Positions 53,773 through 64,000 of a DNA stretch of 64,000 nucleotides are shown here, in pieces; position 1 is the first letter of the stretch, and each line of letters opens with the position of its first letter. Where the stretch lies: positions 17,650-81,649 of the forward strand of contig JAFYYU010000018.1 in assembly GCA_017557425.1 (NCBI GenBank). The letters run 5' to 3'. Position numbers and translations under genes: made by a program. Below the pieces are notes generated by a model, which saw only the letters and a program-made list of their open reading frames with translations, did no database searches and was not told the DNA's origin. This DNA comes from Muribaculaceae bacterium (GTDB lineage Bacteria > Bacteroidota > Bacteroidia > Bacteroidales > Muribaculaceae).

Positions 53773-55347
53773 TCACAAATTTTTGATTACTTCTTTACCT
53801 ATTAGCTTATTTAGTTCGGCACCGACACGTGAATCATTATAAATTGACGCCCAATGTTCTTCGAATATTGGAGCATTTCGGTCAGCAGTGCCATTAACGT
53901 CTACGCGATATATGACAAGGCGTTCCTTATCGCATATTGCCATCAGAGACGAGCGTAGCATTTTGGCATACGATAATCCTTGCGAAAAAGCATTGATTTG
54001 TTCTCGCATAAGTGACATATCTAGTTTTGCTTCAATCACGAAAGGTGCAGTTTCAAAATGTTTATCTCCCTTCGCAAAGAACACAAAATCGGGGATGGCC
54101 TTGAGACCTCTTCCTGCCTTAAGCGAAAGCTGACGGGTCCAGTCCTGTTCTTCATACCCTAGTTTGCGCAAAATGGGTATAAGAATTCTCTCTTCGACAT
54201 CTTTCTCTAGTTTGATTTCACCAAAATCAACATCTTCGACTTCATAGAGTTTTGGCAAGACAGAAGTGTCACCTCCTTTTTGTTCAATTAGTCGAAGGAG
54301 TTCAGAGTAGTCCTGAGCAGACAACTCCACACCATTAATTCCTTGAAGATTCTTACGGACAATGGGGAGGTTGGAAAAATACTGATCTGCTTTTAAATCT
54401 TTATTTGAAATTTGAGGTACCCTTGAGCCGTCACAAACGGTTGTCCTGCATTTGTAATAATCAAAAGGATTATACAGACCAGCTGTATTAGCACGCCATA
54501 CTGAATGAATATAACTCCTCGGAGAGAGGCAATATACAATAACAATATCTCCCCGCTTTGTTCTTTCATTGCATGCCCAGATACTGTTGCCAACGCCTTT
54601 TATTTCCCCACTTGTTGCTTTGTCAAGATAATCAAAATCACTACCAGATGCGCCCGTTAGCCACACATTGACAGGCTTTGGCAGGTCAGTTTGAATGGAC
54701 TCTTCGTTTAGCATTTCTGCCAAACCATAGAAACAAGCGCAAAATTCCGCGTCGCTCATTTCATACTCAGCCTGGAATGCATTCATGGCACAACAAACGT
54801 CAAAATAGTACTTCATGAATGCTTTGTAGTCTTTTGTATGTGGTATCGGGGGCAACTCAATACCAAGAGCATTACAATTTCTCATTATCAAGTCATATCT
54901 ATAAGGGAAAAGGATTGGTTTGAAATGAGAATGTACGATGAAAAGATATAATGAAAGAGGAAGAACATAAGATGATTTTCCCCTAAAATCAGTAGCTCTT
55001 AATACTTTCTTCCTCTCATCTGTGCTACAACTGAGGTTCCCTTTCTCGTCTTGAATGATTTCTGTTAAATAGAAATCATTAACTAATTTTTCATAATCTT
55101 CCAATAACGTGTCATCATTAATGGTAAGTCCTTGACAAGAAAGATTCTCTGCAAGGAAGAACACTTCGTTTACAATGTATTCCGTCTTGATTTCATCAAG
55201 ATTCGCCATTTTGGGTTGGCATTCTTTAGAATAATTAATAATGCCCTCTAGCAACAATCTATGATCATTGGTTTCAGGGTCGAAGAGTTGAATCAGTTTT
55301 TTCCCTTCGTCCGACGTTTTGTAATTCTGCCAAAGTTTCTTATTCAT
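53773..55347 (-). CDS. putative modification-dependent restriction protein (EVE-like + HsdR_N-like nuclease)
   Basis: A 524-residue protein. The N-terminal ~215 residues are unrecognised and helical. About 227-300 resembles an EVE/PUA-like modified-base reader (VNVWLTGASGSDFDYLD, then RGDIVIVYCLSPRSYIHSVWRAN). The last ~130 residues look like the type I restriction HsdR N-terminal nuclease: DVEERILIPILRKLGYEE, IPDFVF with D420 and VIEAK with E439-x-K441, a PD-(D/E)XK core. EVE plus nuclease is a known layout for enzymes that cut modified DNA; this reading is inference. WYL regulator next door; own TAATTTTG promoter. Confidence 0.62.
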   Translation of the reverse strand: MNKKLWQNYKTSDEGKKLIQLFDPETNDHRLLLEGIINYSKECQPKMANLDEIKTEYIVNEVFFLAENLSCQGLTINDDTLLEDYEKLVNDFYLTEIIQDEKGNLSCSTDERKKVLRATDFRGKSSYVLPLSLYLFIVHSHFKPILFPYRYDLIMRNCNALGIELPPIPHTKDYKAFMKYYFDVCCAMNAFQAEYEMSDAEFCACFYGLAEMLNEESIQTDLPKPVNVWLTGASGSDFDYLDKATSGEIKGVGNSIWACNERTKRGDIVIVYCLSPRSYIHSVWRANTAGLYNPFDYYKCRTTVCDGSRVPQISNKDLKADQYFSNLPIVRKNLQGINGVELSAQDYSELLRLIEQKGGDTSVLPKLYEVEDVDFGEIKLEKDVEERILIPILRKLGYEEQDWTRQLSLKAGRGLKAIPDFVFFAKGDKHFETAPFVIEAKLDMSLMREQINAFSQGLSYAKMLRSSLMAICDKERLVIYRVDVNGTADRNAPIFEEHWASIYNDSRVGAELNKLIGKEVIKNL

Positions 55348-55451: not shown

Positions 55452-56396
55452 TTATTCGTTTTCTTGCTCATACATCTGTACAGACCGCAGATGCATGGTG
55501 TGGATCTCGTCGGCCAGCCATTGTGGTTCCAGAACCTTTATCAGATAGCTGCGGCTTACAAAGTGAGTGCTCAGGTCTATCGTCGGGCGCATAATCAATT
55601 CAAAGTCGGAATAGTGTTCTGCTTTGTTTATCTCCCGTTGGCTCTTGTGAATGGGCAGATCTTTTATGTAGTATCGCTCATCCCCAAAGACTCGTATGAC
55701 GATCCTTTGAACTTGTGTGTCATCGTTGACCAGCACACCAAAGCATTCGTCGAAGTATGCTTGGGCATTAAAGCTGCTTAGCATCTTGAACTTCTCGTTG
55801 GTGAGAGACATATTCAAGATGCGGTCAAACGAGAAAACACCGAAGTAGTCAATCATTGGCCAGTCGGCAGTTGCGTCTCGATGGAAGTGGCCCAGGATGT
55901 ACCAACGCTGTTTGAACAGCTTGATGCAGTAGGGTTCAAATGTCAAGTGGCGGGGTTCCTCATCACCATATTTCCTGTAGTCCACGGCCAGTTTGACATT
56001 CTTCTTCATCGCCTCGATGACAGTCTTCAAGTAATCACCTTCGACGATTGCCGGTTGTAACAGGATTCGGTCTTGCAATGACATTGCTTCGCCAAGGATA
56101 TTGCTCACCGAAAGCGTGTTTAACATCCAGTTCTGGACGCTCTCGCCACGGAGCACCTCGGGATTACCGATATAATACTTGTAGCTGTTCTGACGGTTGC
56201 AATCGATGTAGATGCCGAAGATGTCCTCAATCGCATCCTTGTGGCGGTTGAATGTGGAGCGAGCTAGATCCACACCCTCGCTCATGTCCGTTTCAAGCCA
56301 CTTCTCGTTAATATCGGCAAACGATATACCATCTTCGGCTTTGTGAATGGTATTCACAAGCCAGATATACTCTTTGAATAGTGTCGGTACCCTCAT
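55452..56396 (-). CDS. WYL domain transcription regulator
   Basis: A 314-residue regulator: an N-terminal winged-helix-like part (ISFADINEKWLETDMSEGVDLARSTFNRHKDAIEDIFGI, about 24-62), a WYL domain (about 140-215) with PYCIKLFKQRWYILGHF, and a WCX-like C-terminal part (about 225-305). WYL regulators sense nucleic-acid ligands and control many defence loci (for example BrxR-like proteins). It lies directly upstream of the restriction gene on the same strand, and the palindromes repeated nearby are plausible binding sites. TAAATTTG box at 56479-56472. Confidence 0.85.
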   Translation of the reverse strand: MRVPTLFKEYIWLVNTIHKAEDGISFADINEKWLETDMSEGVDLARSTFNRHKDAIEDIFGIYIDCNRQNSYKYYIGNPEVLRGESVQNWMLNTLSVSNILGEAMSLQDRILLQPAIVEGDYLKTVIEAMKKNVKLAVDYRKYGDEEPRHLTFEPYCIKLFKQRWYILGHFHRDATADWPMIDYFGVFSFDRILNMSLTNEKFKMLSSFNAQAYFDECFGVLVNDDTQVQRIVIRVFGDERYYIKDLPIHKSQREINKAEHYSDFELIMRPTIDLSTHFVSRSYLIKVLEPQWLADEIHTMHLRSVQMYEQENE

Positions 56397-57163: not shown

Positions 57164-59399
57164 ATGATAGACGATACTAAGGATTTTACAAAGAAATATT
57201 CAATCAAGAAAAATGGTGGACTTGGAAGTGGTGGCAATGGTGATGTAAAAACTGCTATATGCAACGACACGGGAGAACCAGTGGCATTAAAGTGCCTTAG
57301 CAAAGAAGCCATGAACAATAAAAGAGAAGTGCGAACGCTTTGAGGATGAGATCAATACAATGTGCACGGCAGGGAAGGCAATCAAAGGCATTATACCCAT
57401 ACTAGACTATTCAATAGAAGGTGGATGGTATGTAATGCCAATAGCGGAAAGAATAGAAAGCCATTGTAATAATATAGACGAGATAGTAAATGGCATATTA
57501 GAAATAGCAGAGACCTTAGTGGAACTACATAAGATGAATTTGTCTCATCGGGATATTAAGCCAGATAATCTACTGTACTATGAGGGCAAATGGGTGCTTT
57601 GTGACTTTGGACTAGTGGATATTCCCGACAACCCTCATAACCTGACAAAGAATGACAAACGCATTGGAGCTGTAAAGACTCTGGCTCCAGAAATGACCCG
57701 TTATGCAAAAGATGCTGATGGAAGAAAAGCTGATGTGTACTCACTGGCAAAAACTCTGTGGATTTTATTAACAGGAAATACAAAAGGATTTGAAGGACGA
57801 TATGTAGTAACTGACACTTCTATATCTCTACATGAATATGAACACCTGAAAAATGAACATCTGGTAGAGATAGATGAGCTGCTAAATGTTGCCACACAGA
57901 ATGACCCAGATGAACGACCTGAAATGGAAGAATTTGCCAAAATGTTAAAAAAGTGGCAGGCAGTAAAGGTTGACAATTGGAAGAAGGCTGAAAGCAATTG
58001 GAATTTTGTGAAGAGATTTTTATTCCAAAGAAATACGCCACAACGTAGTTGCTGGATGAATCCCAATGATATAATTGAGGTGCTTAGTGTAATATCAGTT
58101 TTGCCTATAGATTGCCATTTGTTCTTTCCTAACCGCGGGTGGATGGAATTTAAGAGAGTTGAGCCATCACGCTCTGAGGAAGGATGTCTTGACATATATA
58201 CCCCTATGGCAATTTACCGAGTGAAAGTGGGGAAATTAATATTTGAAAGTTTCCATTTGGCATCTATGGACTACTTTTTGATGGAGACCGCACCTTTGGA
58301 ACCAGCTGTCGGAATAGAAATAGACGAATGGTTTGAACAGGTAGTAGATGATGGAAAAGGACGGATTGTGTCAGCGGTTGATGCAATGTATGGTGTTTAC
58401 GATTATGATACGGGCGAGAAGCTTCCCAAAGAATCAAGACTTATAGAGAGGTGTTTAAAAGGCAAATTCTTGATGATACTGAAATATGGGCTATATAATA
58501 TGATACCAGAAATGGATGATGGCAGGCATAACAATTGCACTAATGATGAATTCAGAGCTTATATTGAAAGATTGGAAAAGATATTTGTGTTACACGATTA
58601 TATGGAAGGTGATGAATGGCGGGAAATGCTTGATAATGAGGTCAGGCATTGCCCATTTATACCAAAAAGGGAGGTGCCGAATACAAGTATAATAATCAAA
58701 ACAGACCCAGACTTTGTTATAGATAATATGGGGGCTTTTGATTTTAGTAGTGTTATCTCTAAGTATGATGGCATGTCAGTTGGCAAAGCCAAATACAGAT
58801 ATGTGTTCCATCCATCGACAAGAATAAATCTTTTTAAGAGGTTACTGACAAACAAAAAGTTCTATCTATGTAAGGATGGGCATCTGAGAGAACTAGATTC
58901 GAGTTCGCCAGATATTTATGAGGCTACAGATAGAGAGGCGGCGTTATATATCCATAGAGAACTTTCTGATGCGGTAAAAGCATTCTGCAATGGTAAGGTA
59001 GGTGACTCGGAGCAACCGTATTTTTCGATTGATATCATAAAAGTTGGCAACCCGTGTTGTCTTTTCTCTAAAGAAATAATAAAGGAGTTGATGATGGCTG
59101 CTGACGACAGACACAACAATACTTTGGTGATAGATGAAGACGGTAACGCACATATTATTGAGGACATCGATGCAGCGAGAGTTTATCCCGTGATACACGA
59201 GACATGGTTTGCACGAAATGTGTATGTGGGAAAATACTCCAATCTACAAGACCTTGATTCGGCATATCACTACTGTCTTGGCAAATGGCTTGATTATTTG
59301 GAACAAGGGATTGGCCAACATATGGAGGATTATGATAATCATCATGAGAGTGATGCGGAACTTGAAGAAAGAATTAAGAAAATAATGCGAGTTGAATAA
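57164..59399 (+). CDS. serine/threonine protein kinase-like protein, frameshifted
   Basis: Two frames together make one kinase. The first (57164-57343) encodes the N-lobe: NGGLGSGGNGDVKTA (glycine loop) and PVALKCL (VAIK lysine). It ends at TGA 57341-57343. The second continues in the +1 frame from about 57321 (KEKCERFEDEINTMC), with the first ATG at 57360: catalytic HRDIKPDN (H63-N70 from that ATG), DFG (82-84), APE (109-111), and about 460 further residues of unknown type. One base too many in the AAAA run 57320-57323 explains the break. True mutation, slippage switch or sequencing error cannot be separated here. Confidence 0.72.
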
Positions 59400-59879: not shown

Positions 59880-59911
59880 TTTGTTATTTCACTTGAAATA
59901 ACTTATCTTTG
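59880..59911 (+). promoter_or_regulatory. promoter for the AAA15-RloB-HEPN operon
   Basis: TTTG (59880-59883), 20 bp, TATCTTTG (59904-59911), 25 bp before ATG 59937. It shows that the upstream in-frame extension from 59817 is not translated. Confidence 0.75.
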
Positions 59912-59936
59912 CGCCAAAACTTCAATACAATATATC

Positions 59937-61211
59937 ATGATTAGAGAATTTTGGGCAGAAAATTTTCTGTCAATTAAGGAACGGCAAACCGTTAACTTTG
60001 AGACGAAGTCCAAAGACGACGAGTGGGCTTCGGTAGATGTGGGTGGCGACAAGCGAATCAATAAGCTTGCAGTAATCTATGGCGCAAATGCTTCTGGTAA
60101 GTCTAATTTGCTCTTGGCTATTCAAAATGTGTTTGAATTGTTATTCTATTCACAGGCTAAAAGGGCAGCCTTGGTTCGGACAAAAAGAACATTTGCTTCG
60201 ATGCCAGAAGAACCAACAAGAATGTATGTATCATTCTATGCAGATGGCGTAAGATACGATTATTTCGTTACATTTACAAGAAAACACATTCTTCAGGAAA
60301 ATATGGATTGGTACCCTAATGGAGCGAAAGCTCTATTCTATAAGAGATCTTTTGTTTCTGATGAATCTCAAGCAGAGGTTAAATTTGGTGACAGTTTATC
60401 AATGTCTGCTGATACAAAAAAAGTTTTTCAGCAGAACACATTGAACAATCACACGGTTTTGTCCACTTTTGATAAAATCTCTGTTGAGAATGATGCTGTA
60501 AGGATTGCCAATTTGTATACATGGATGGCAGTTTATATGCATGAAGTTAACATCCAGCAAGGAATGCTTGAAGACATATTGAAATCAGTAGAGAACGACA
60601 AGAAAAGGAAAGATTTCTTTCTCGCATTATTGCGTAAGGCTGATTTTAACATCGTCGATTTCTATACTGAAACAGTAACCGAAAGTCATCCCATTCGACA
60701 GCTCACAACACCTGATGATGTTAATGATGGCCCTATGTATCTGATAGAGCGTACAAAAGCCTACTTCAAATGTGCAGCTGGTGACGATGAGTTTATCTTG
60801 AGCCTTGATGAACAATCTCAAGGCACCAAGAAATTCTTGTCCAATCTTGCTTGTCTTTACAGTGCGATTACGGGCAATCATGTATTTCTGCTTGACGAAA
60901 TTGATTCAGAACTACATGATGATTTACTATTGTATTTTTTGGACTCGTTTGTATTGAACTCCAAGAAATCACAGCTGATTTTTACGACACATGAAACATC
61001 TTTGTTAGATGAGGATTTGCTTAACACACATCGGGGCTTTGTGTTCCTTGCTGAGAAAGACCGAGAAGGGGCCTACTCAAAATACACGAGAGTTGATGAG
61101 TTCGGGCTGCACAAGAATCTCTCATTATACAATGCTTACAAGACAGGGCGGCTTGGTGCTGTGCCGCAATTAGGTTCACCCATCATTTATATGGACGATG
61201 ACGAAGATTAA
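59937..61211 (+). CDS. AAA15/RloA-type ATPase
   Basis: First gene of the four-gene operon, 424 residues from ATG 59937. SMC/ABC-like AAA15 layout: MIREFWAENFLSIKERQTV start, Walker A GANASGKSN (49-57), a helical lid and middle (about 120-290), signature-like LDEQSQGTKKFLSNL and Walker B VFLLDEIDSELHDD (D320/E321), then TTHETSLLDE. This is the family of RloA and of AriA in PARIS, where the ATPase senses a trigger and releases a Toprim partner. The next gene is RloB, overlapping by 14 bp. Confidence 0.82.
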   Translation: MIREFWAENFLSIKERQTVNFETKSKDDEWASVDVGGDKRINKLAVIYGANASGKSNLLLAIQNVFELLFYSQAKRAALVRTKRTFASMPEEPTRMYVSFYADGVRYDYFVTFTRKHILQENMDWYPNGAKALFYKRSFVSDESQAEVKFGDSLSMSADTKKVFQQNTLNNHTVLSTFDKISVENDAVRIANLYTWMAVYMHEVNIQQGMLEDILKSVENDKKRKDFFLALLRKADFNIVDFYTETVTESHPIRQLTTPDDVNDGPMYLIERTKAYFKCAAGDDEFILSLDEQSQGTKKFLSNLACLYSAITGNHVFLLDEIDSELHDDLLLYFLDSFVLNSKKSQLIFTTHETSLLDEDLLNTHRGFVFLAEKDREGAYSKYTRVDEFGLHKNLSLYNAYKTGRLGAVPQLGSPIIYMDDDED

Positions 61212-61818
61212 AGACTCGATAGCTGTGATTGGCGAAGGAATAACGGAATACTATTATTTCAATTCCTTGAAAGATGAGTTCACTCAGCTTAACTTGCGCC
61301 CAATGTACCCCAAGCACTCCACAAGTCTTGAGGATCTTGAACAGGAAATCGAAAAGGCCATCGGTAGGGGCTACAATTTGATTTTCTGTGTTATAGACAT
61401 GGACAACAAGAAAGATGGCACAGAAAAGCAAAACTATCTTAACTTGAAAAAACGTCTTGAGGGCACTTGGACCATTAAGAAGACAGATCAGACCTATACC
61501 ATTCGCTTTATTGAGAACGAGCGATGCACCGAACTGTTCTTCTTGTTTTACTTTGTTTACACATCCCGCCACTTCCAGAACCAACCAGCCCTATTACAAG
61601 AGCTCAATAAACACTGCAAATATGAGAAAACCGAGAAGTTCTTCAAAGCACATAGTCTGCACCAGTATTTTCAGAAGAATGGCGGCAGCTTCATGGACGC
61701 GTTGCGCAATGCCGCTCGCTCAATGAAGGAGAAAGAAGAGACCAGACGAGACCACTCCTATTCCCAAATGGCCGAACTGTTTGCGGCCTTGGGAATACAA
61801 TCACAATATATATCATGA
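61198..61818 (+). CDS. RloB-like Toprim-type protein
   Basis: 206 residues. IAVIGEGITEYYYFNSL (E13, E17) near the start and LIFCVIDMDNKKD (D67/D69) later give the acidic E...DxD pattern of Toprim folds; FIENERCTELFFLFYF and the GIRNE-like C-terminus fit RloB (partner of RloA). Toprim proteins paired with AAA15 ATPases act as nucleases in PARIS-like immunity; activity here is inferred. ATG overlaps the ATPase stop by 14 bp, and its own stop overlaps the next start (ATGA). Confidence 0.78.
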   Translation: MTKIKDSIAVIGEGITEYYYFNSLKDEFTQLNLRPMYPKHSTSLEDLEQEIEKAIGRGYNLIFCVIDMDNKKDGTEKQNYLNLKKRLEGTWTIKKTDQTYTIRFIENERCTELFFLFYFVYTSRHFQNQPALLQELNKHCKYEKTEKFFKAHSLHQYFQKNGGSFMDALRNAARSMKEKEETRRDHSYSQMAELFAALGIQSQYIS

Positions 61819-62534
61819 AAGAAATTTATATAATTATTAAAGACAAGGCGCATACCCTAAAGAGAATTGAAGGATTGTGCTCGAAGTATCATACTAAAAC
61901 TGCGATCAACGAACAACAAAGAAAGCGCCACTTTAAATCATACTGCCATGATGCAGTGACAGTGATCAATGATTGTTTTGAAACATCGTTGTTGGGAGCC
62001 AAGCGCACCATAAACAAAATCAATGAATACAGCAAGAAAGACAATGTCAATATCCAAGCAGCATCCCTTGATATATTCAACATACTAATAAATCTTAAGT
62101 GTCTTGTTGAGAGTTCCGTCCCCATCCAGGATTTACCTTCATGCAGAAGATTAATTGGCCTATCGCCTGAAGATGCAGTTTTCAAGGCAAACGAGTTCGT
62201 GAAGAATAACGATATTCGAGCAGGCATTCATATTTTATCCTTGGAATCAAATGTTACAGACACGCAGTATATCGAAGCCGTAACTACATTTTATAGTAAT
62301 TATCTGCATGAGTTAAAGGACGAGATCAATTTCAAAAGGATAGCTCCCAACCAAATTGAGCAGTTCTTGCTTGACAAATTCAATATAGAACTTGAATATT
62401 GCCGCCTTGCCCAACTTAAAGCCGGAAACAATATTGCAAAAGACATTAAAGGTTTAGCTGATATTGCCAAGGAAAGCATTGAGAAACGTGAGCAAAGACT
62501 TATAGCATTAAATAAAACATTGTTAAGCATATAA
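61815..62534 (+). CDS. hypothetical protein, third gene of the AAA15-RloB operon
   Basis: Not recognised. 239 residues, almost entirely alpha-helical, beginning MKEIYIIIKDKAHTLKRIEGL; no signal peptide, membrane segment or metal motif. Helical repeats such as KRTINKINEYSKKDNVNIQ and a charged C-terminal helix (AKESIEKREQRLIALNK) suggest a scaffold, sensor or antitoxin-like partner. ATGA overlap with rloB and a 5-bp gap to the HEPN gene indicate obligatory co-expression, so it is likely part of the same system. Confidence 0.6.
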   Translation: MKEIYIIIKDKAHTLKRIEGLCSKYHTKTAINEQQRKRHFKSYCHDAVTVINDCFETSLLGAKRTINKINEYSKKDNVNIQAASLDIFNILINLKCLVESSVPIQDLPSCRRLIGLSPEDAVFKANEFVKNNDIRAGIHILSLESNVTDTQYIEAVTTFYSNYLHELKDEINFKRIAPNQIEQFLLDKFNIELEYCRLAQLKAGNNIAKDIKGLADIAKESIEKREQRLIALNKTLLSI

Positions 62535-62539
62535 TAATT

Positions 62540-63184
62540 ATGTCAACTGATTTCATCAACATTGTGACAGATAAAGATAGGCTACAAAAGGAATTGATAT
62601 TTTACAGCCTATTCCTTATGGTTTTCGAGAACTTTGTTTCGCATTGGAAGGAAACTATTCGTTCATTTTACTCAAATGGAATGGCCATTGACGAAGAGAC
62701 TGGAAAATATTATGATTTTGTGAAAGTCAAATGGTGTGATGGACAATGTTTTACGACAAGGGACAAGGAGAAAGAACAACAGTTTAATCGAACTGTTTTC
62801 CAACGCATTAAAAAGAATGGGAATAATAATCCCAAATTGTCAATGTTTGACTGGATGGTTGATTTTAACCTCATCGAAAGAGAAGACTTTGACATTTTAG
62901 TAAAATGTTATGACAAAAGAAACGAATATGCTCATAATATTGCTGGTTGCCTTAATCAGTTTGTAACCAATGAGGAAAAAAATCTATTGAAATCTTTAAT
63001 ATCTATCAGCAATAAGGCTGCCAAACAATGGATTTTAGAGGTTGAACTGCCAACAAGTGCGCCTGAAGAACTAAAGAATTCCATTGACAAGAACGGAAAA
63101 TACAATGAACCTGACATCATTTCAGGCACTCAGTTATTTTATTCGTTAGTATTGGAAAATTTAAAAGATATAATAACTGAATGA
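62540..63184 (+). CDS. HEPN-like protein (RNase-type motif), fourth gene of the operon
   Basis: 214 residues, helical, cytoplasmic. KCYDKRNEYAHNIAG holds R127-N128-x3-H132, the Rx4-6H motif of HEPN ribonucleases, in a helix preceded by a hydrophobic one, as expected for the fold. HEPN proteins cut RNA in toxin-antitoxin and abortive-infection systems. It starts 5 bp after the helical protein. No other catalytic motif is visible; a non-enzymatic HEPN is possible. Confidence 0.62.
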   Translation: MSTDFINIVTDKDRLQKELIFYSLFLMVFENFVSHWKETIRSFYSNGMAIDEETGKYYDFVKVKWCDGQCFTTRDKEKEQQFNRTVFQRIKKNGNNNPKLSMFDWMVDFNLIEREDFDILVKCYDKRNEYAHNIAGCLNQFVTNEEKNLLKSLISISNKAAKQWILEVELPTSAPEELKNSIDKNGKYNEPDIISGTQLFYSLVLENLKDIITE

Positions 63185-63343: not shown

Positions 63344-63841
63344 TCATATTTTTTTTCCTTTAATTGAATACTGGTAGGACTTATCGTCTATAAACATTTG
63401 ATACTCATTAATGCCTTTTTCTTTCGCTATCAAATGTAGTATTTTTTTATTGATTGGTGAAATATTCTTACCATAATAAATAGCATTCGGCCTTATATGC
63501 TTAATACCATAAAAATCTTCTTCTGGGGAGCCATTCATTAAAGTTAGGATAAGTCTCCATTCCTTTTCATAACTCCACTGAGTAGATTTATACAACTGAC
63601 ATTTAGAAACAGCTAATATGTCAGGATTATTCATAGGCAGTCCCAAACTTTTTCCAATAAAAGATAGCAAATAATTAGTCGCATCATAACGCCGCTTATC
63701 ATATATTACTGGGTACAGATTATTAATCACGGCTTTCTCGCATTGTTTCAACTTATCACATTTCATACATCGCATTTGCAATGTCCTTAAATCATATTCC
63801 AAAGCAAAACCTTGGTGGAATTTTGCATAGTGCGACCACAT
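63344..63841 (-). pseudogene. DUF2971 protein, 5'-truncated
   Basis: 165 residues matching the C-terminal two thirds of DUF2971 proteins, which usually read LMWSHYAxxHxGFCLEYD; here the frame begins exactly at MWSHYAKFHQGFALEYD, so the apparent start Met is internal and about 60-100 N-terminal residues are missing. The break at about 63842 coincides with insertion-sequence-like DNA to the right. DUF2971 genes are common in defence islands; function unknown. Confidence 0.7.
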
Positions 63842-64000
63842 CGTTACAGAATGAATAGTTGCGTATTCCGGCGATACCCGTTCAGCAATTCCGGTGATAC
63901 CCGTTCACTCGGTTGCTGGTTTTCAGTATCGGCGGCAAAATTAATATTTTTTTCTTAGGCTCTCTCCTTCGAGCTGAAATCTTTTGGATTTATGCACGAG
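63842..64000. mobile_element. probable end of an IS21-family insertion sequence
   Basis: Two direct copies of an ATTCCGGYGATACCCGTTCA motif (63867-63886 and 63890-63909) lie just inside the break of the DUF2971 gene, the layout of multiple terminal repeats in IS21-family elements. The transposase genes would lie right of the window. Confidence 0.55.

Follow-up and report, generated by a model that had tools for sequence, protein, structure and literature searches.

In AbiL (AbiLi–AbiLii)/RloAB systems, which are described as bicistronic, an ATPase gene precedes a gene for an RloB-type Toprim protein (PMC10440598). An RloB-type Toprim protein of Clostridium algidicarnis is a toxin that is neutralized by its AAA partner (PMC10440598). 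PARIS (AriA–AriB) likewise pairs an ABC/AAA ATPase with a downstream Toprim nuclease, and its AriB is a DUF4435 protein (PF14491; PMC9122126). Here we analyze a four-gene operon, A-B-C-D, in a 64,000-nucleotide stretch of DNA from a gut bacterium of the Muribaculaceae (the window). Genes A and B resemble AbiL/RloAB in gene order, protein families, and catalytic residues, but two further genes lie downstream. The reading that we favor, if only tentatively, is that A and B form an abortive-infection switch of the AbiL/RloAB type to which C and D have been added as plug-in modules, and that D would be a second, RNA-cutting effector. The features of the operon are as follows.

59880..59911, forward strand: match to a Bacteroidota-type promoter, TTTG...TATCTTTG, found by pattern matching.
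59937..61211, forward strand: gene A, ABC/AAA ATPase of the AbiLi (RloA-like) type, 424 amino acids (AAA_21 1.5e-23; PADLOC AbiLi 6.1e-63).
61198..61818, forward strand: gene B, RloB/AbiLii Toprim protein, 206 amino acids (Pfam RloB 7.7e-22; AbiLii 1.2e-12).
61815..62534, forward strand: gene C, unnamed, 239 amino acids; its product is predicted to be soluble and all-helical and has relatives in three other genomes.
62540..63184, forward strand: gene D, probable HEPN RNase, 214 amino acids, R127-x4-H132; assigned from the motif, its invariant residues, and a distant relative (L142).

The four-gene operon is real. Its open reading frames (ORFs) span 59937–63184 of the window; A and B overlap by 14 bases, B and C overlap by 4 bases, and C is separated from D by 5 bases. 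Because of this spacing, the genes are very likely to be carried on a single transcript. The promoter match, for which we assume a consensus typical of Bacteroidota, ends 25 bases upstream of the gene A ATG. The window holds 7 copies of the pattern TTTG N18-22 TANNTTTG, compared with 1.04 expected from shuffles, and none of the remaining 6 copies lies within the operon. G+C content drops from 0.54 (window positions 1–40000) to 0.33–0.43 across the four genes. An initial reading made from the letters of the window (the sequence-only reading) had described four tightly packed genes behind a promoter, encoding an ATPase–RloB pair, an unrecognized third product, and a fourth product with a HEPN motif. 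This description is borne out by the layout, by profile searches, and by the motif. The residues that it had singled out (K55 in A, E13 and D67 in B, and R127 and H132 in D) were also confirmed.

Within the order, RloB is common: it occurs in 90 of 295 genomes, including the source genome (G000; 2.58 Mb, 24 contigs, 85% complete). We examined 98 of the 131 places listed, with the window among them; genes in the fetched stretches were called with a simple ORF script, and their start positions are approximate. In 91 of the 98 loci, the gene immediately upstream of RloB is on the same strand, exceeds 350 amino acids, and is tagged as an ATPase by an iterated profile. Since the window likewise has an AbiLi-type ATPase gene directly before its RloB/AbiLii gene, A-B is, as judged by sequence, an ordinary AbiL/RloAB member. 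The Walker motifs of A are intact, with K55 in Walker A (GANASGKS) and D320-E321 in Walker B. All four acidic Toprim residues of B are present: E13 and E17 (GEGITE), and D67 and D69 (DMD). In an alignment of the RloB proteins of 92 ATPase–RloB pairs, which include the window and also one locus (L004) outside the 98, conservation is 92/92 for D67, 91/92 for D69, 90/92 for E17, and 75/92 for E13. Conservation is thus higher at E17 than at E13, the residue named in the sequence-only reading. Comparison of A with solved structures gave only a weak SMC match (0.0072), and a search of viral_contigs with A returned nothing useful. The sequence-only reading had called the system PARIS-like, whereas the profiles identify AbiL/RloAB. 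Membership of A-B in PARIS was rejected because a Pfam scan of B gave no DUF4435 match to E 1.

Gene D likely encodes a HEPN RNase, a prediction made because of its R-x4-H motif. HEPN superfamily proteins carry an R-x4-6-H motif (PMC3710099), which is present in D and in its three aligned relatives. The motif of D (RNEYAH) is intact, and R127, N128, A131, and H132 are invariant in all four aligned proteins. A two-row profile of D finds 5 of 393 genomes of the order: the source genome, G479, and G376 match strongly, followed by G321 (1.7e-6) and G504 (1.9e-4). The G504 match is short, contains two internal stops, and was taken as chance. With the single sequence, only the source genome is found among 297 genomes of the family, and in the family of G376 the carriers are G376 and G479 (2 of 31 genomes). 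Searches of plasmids, phages, and viral_contigs with D produced nothing useful, and no match was obtained in solved structures, PHROGs, or NCBIfam.

Gene D itself matches no Pfam HEPN profile (to E 10); among the four aligned proteins, only the G321 relative, L142, matches HEPN models (HEPN_MAE_28990 4.5e-4 and HEPN_Apea 1e-3, both under the curated cut-offs). The miss for D reflects a failure of the profiles to detect it and does not imply that the protein is something other than HEPN. L142 aligns to a three-row D profile with 96% probability over 135 columns. When the D rows plus L142 were compared by hhalign with nine MAE_28990 proteins (from nine of the 14 places found), the probability was 13% (E 0.002) over 28 columns, in which the motifs were aligned in register; without L142 it was 9.6% (E 0.0033, 38 columns). 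Two subgroups of the nine proteins gave 0.4 to 14%. As controls, six column-shuffled profiles gave 0.07–1.05% and the C profile gave 0.14–0.32%.

Full-length D occurs in two other genomes, G479 and G376, and is directly downstream of an ATPase–Toprim pair in both. These genomes belong to one genus and share the locus, which is adjoined by a gene for what we take to be a mutase and is presumably a type III restriction-modification locus, both names being assigned by us from the sequences. In G479 the order is ATPase, RloB, D, methylase, Abi_C protein, a further gene, and restriction subunit. In G376, D is preceded by a different ATPase and then a probable OLD-like Toprim protein, and is followed by methylase, a further gene, and restriction subunit; the Toprim assignment in this genome is based on weak matches (PF20469 3.2e-4, just below cut-off). 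The two D proteins are 94.6% identical, and the DNA is 90% identical through D, with similarity ending 9 bases upstream of the D start. This point is the Toprim stop codon in G376; in G479, ∼45 bases still separate it from RloB. The two pairs have no mutual blastp match at 1e-3. The ATPases nevertheless share a superfamily, since both match the AAA_21 and AbiLi profiles. A comparison of L144:5696–7810 with L141:3892–5508 shows an Abi_C/AbiJ-like gene in G479 only, and the genes before the restriction subunit in these loci encode proteins of 422 and 538 amino acids that are 37% identical. These differences are further swapping within the same restriction locus.

The D proteins of the window and G479 are 56% identical, whereas their ATPases are 26% identical, which argues that D and the pair have different histories. 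In total, D accompanies three ATPase–Toprim pairs: it follows two of them directly, and in the window C intervenes. One account of this distribution is that D belongs to restriction loci, as a suicide RNase that accompanies a restriction-modification system and the pair guarding it, and that the window copy has been displaced. D indeed lies between the pair and the methylase gene of the type III-like locus in both G479 and G376, and L142 follows a methylase gene and a type II endonuclease gene (PADLOC REase_II 2.1e-131). Furthermore, the MAE_28990 HEPN family is operonic with DNA methylase genes, and HEPN genes occur in restriction operons (PMC3710099). However, no restriction or methylase family was detected among the eight window proteins scanned between 53773 and 63841, of which one (53773–55347) has no Pfam family; the contig itself stops 816 bases past D, at window base 64000. 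We regard this account as quite improbable.

Gene C has no family at E < 0.01 in Pfam, PADLOC, NCBIfam, or PHROGs, and no match among solved structures. Its relatives, at 32–35% identity, are found in three other genomes. Counting the source genome, C is detected in 2 of 297 genomes of the family and in 3 of 393 of the order; the family is also that of a Muribaculaceae metagenome-assembled genome carrying a C relative. In a phylum sample, only the source genome was found (1 of 173), and the families of G571 (1 of 3) and G559 (1 of 7) yielded no genomes beyond those two. Searches of plasmids, genome_contigs (with the single sequence), and viral_contigs gave nothing useful. The highest 19-residue Kyte–Doolittle mean in the C product is 1.45, and a membrane segment is judged unlikely from this profile.

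One relative (L004, which is one locus with L002 and L145) has the order ATPase-RloB-C without D, and C begins 11 bases after RloB. Between the window and L004, C is 34% identical and the ATPases are 26% identical. Because these distances are similar, C may have traveled with its pair. In G559, C is intact and is flanked by genes that we take to be priA-like and of the MATE transporter type. In G571, C lies near the contig start and contains an internal stop; the open frame that ends before it has no match to the RloB profile.

Small partners accompany some HEPN toxins, and the 5-base spacing of C and D would suit a toxin-antitoxin pair, with D as toxin and C as antitoxin, that hitchhikes behind RloAB. 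We consider this explanation very improbable, since C occurs without nearby D in L004, G559, and G571, D occurs without nearby C in G479 and G376, and the window is the sole fetched locus that holds both. C-D as an obligatory pair was rejected, as each occurs without the other nearby outside the window. A fixed four-gene system was rejected as well: a search for the same gene order elsewhere, as the sequence-only reading had advised, yielded no second four-part set in any search made. Homologs found mostly away from the ATPase–RloB pair would speak against the association that this reading had proposed. Such is the case for C, which lies with RloAB in 1 of 3 other loci (a tiny sample), but not for D. 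Both full-length copies of D elsewhere follow an ATPase–Toprim pair, although only one of these pairs contains RloB and the two copies represent one orthologous locus.

A same-strand gene lies within 60 bases behind RloB in 20 of the 98 loci; in 4 of the 98, the fetched stretch stops before any downstream gene. These first genes encode HsdR (three), HsdS, SIR2, a CD-NTase (below cut-off), a KAP NTPase, and HNH (one each), DUF5131 (two), housekeeping-type proteins (five), and proteins of no family (three); the window contributes C, and L105 contributes D. DUF5131 is another recurrent third gene behind RloB. It was found in two genomes, at L041:3398–4129 and L084:1955–2680 (2.7e-95 and 9e-98), with a 4-base overlap once and a 43-base gap once. 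For a Bacteroides fragilis plasmid, the gene table of the stretch shown, which is incomplete, has no same-strand gene downstream of RloB. Within two genes of RloB, 3 of 99 proteins come from HEPN-motif genes of 120–350 amino acids, compared with 1 of 126 farther away, and two of the three are D. A general enrichment of such genes beside RloB was rejected.

The varied genes behind RloB, including the five of housekeeping type, speak for a strong competitor to the favored reading: A-B may be a self-sufficient AbiL system, and C and D may be independent defense genes that share its transcript through the gathering of genes in a defense island. This explanation is possible and is nearly as likely as the favored one. 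It gains from the two C-carrying genomes that lack a detectable RloB match (G559 and G571), and from the absence of a general enrichment of HEPN-motif genes near RloB. It is opposed by the retention of D where the preceding ATPase–Toprim pair differs and by the tight B/C and C/D junctions in the window.

Several other observations weigh against the idea of an AbiL/RloAB switch with plug-in modules. Among the 98 RloB loci, D is present in two and C in one, with the window counted in both. The nearest relatives of gene A (L081, 46% identity; L129, 42%; L089, 42%; L111, 40%) have neither C nor D in the fetched stretches. The D copies of G479 and G376 form one lineage; outside the window, D is thus a single independent lineage with two partners, and it adjoins the methylase gene in both genomes. 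Finally, the structure models are of low confidence. The single-sequence model of D is mostly helical (pLDDT 36.2), and the model of C from a two-row alignment is all-helical with ten helices (pLDDT 46.9).

If the favored reading is correct, ATPase A would assemble as a sensor and keep the RloB nuclease inactive. When A meets a phage product, it would free the nuclease, as in PARIS. This restraint-and-release model, which we consider the likeliest, is drawn from PARIS (PMC12409363, PMC9122126) and from the neutralization of the RloB toxin (PMC10440598); by analogy with that pair, B would be toxic and neutralized by A, and infection would be abortive. D would be a second effector that cuts RNA and is triggered through the same control; a phage that neutralizes one nuclease would then still face the other. 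C would be a helical accessory, and our best guess is that it serves as an adaptor, an inhibitor, or a part that recognizes the trigger. The control of C and D by ATPase A is inferred. As plug-in modules, the add-ons would be dispensable and exchanged among ATPase–Toprim pairs, and the relatives suggest attachments to the pair that are swapped around rather than a single fixed four-gene machine. A bolder version, which we think unlikely, is that ATPase–Toprim pairs (RloAB or OLD-like) are interchangeable control units, that D is an RNase whose release depends on whichever ATPase lies in front of it, which would make a suicide switch with two nucleases (Toprim plus HEPN), and that C founds a new family of helical regulators or trigger-recognition proteins.

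The G479 and G376 loci provide a natural experiment, in that the same site and the same D are combined with a different ATPase–Toprim pair. These loci allow a test of whether an ATPase of this class can control more than its own Toprim partner. If it can, two nucleases of unrelated fold would answer to a single sensor, and escape by a single phage inhibitor would be harder. C would represent a new protein family, whose role can be tested.

Other genes near the operon have defense-related matches. A DUF2971 protein gene (63344–63841, reverse strand; 2.1e-11; PADLOC PDC-S31 4.8e-21) converges on the operon and suggests a small defense island at the contig end. Upstream, a Ser/Thr kinase gene (57164–57343 and 57360–59399, forward strand; Pkinase 9.7e-17; PADLOC PD-T4-6 8.4e-21) looks split, with the glycine-rich N-lobe in one frame and the remainder in another, as in a pseudogene or through a sequencing error. 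It is adjoined by a gene for a WYL-domain regulator (55452–56396, reverse strand; 2.4e-9), a common type of defense-island regulator.

The general theme is already known, since OLD-ABC-Toprim and HEPN genes are reported as auxiliary effectors around BREX (PMC12839542) and HEPN genes are reported in operons with restriction genes (PMC3710099). Among the papers listed in the literature searches, judged by title, the opening of the abstract, or passages of text, none describes the A-B-C-D combination, and the passages on RloAB name neither the trigger nor the target of a pair. The operon likely shares its working principle with PARIS and differs from it in having RloB in place of a DUF4435 protein. 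Gene D has the R-x4-H motif in common with the MAE_28990 and ApeA HEPN families, both of which L142 matches weakly, but D itself matches neither profile and the resemblance is limited to the motif region. The arrangement has a parallel on the Phocaeicola vulgatus plasmid pPvulCL10_1 (NZ_CP096966.1; L164:4001–8509), where AAA, RloB, TIR, SIR2, and TIR genes form one run and RloB and TIR overlap by 4 bases. As in the window, an overlapping gene of effector type follows the pair, although there the add-ons are TIR and SIR2, and in the window they are C and D.

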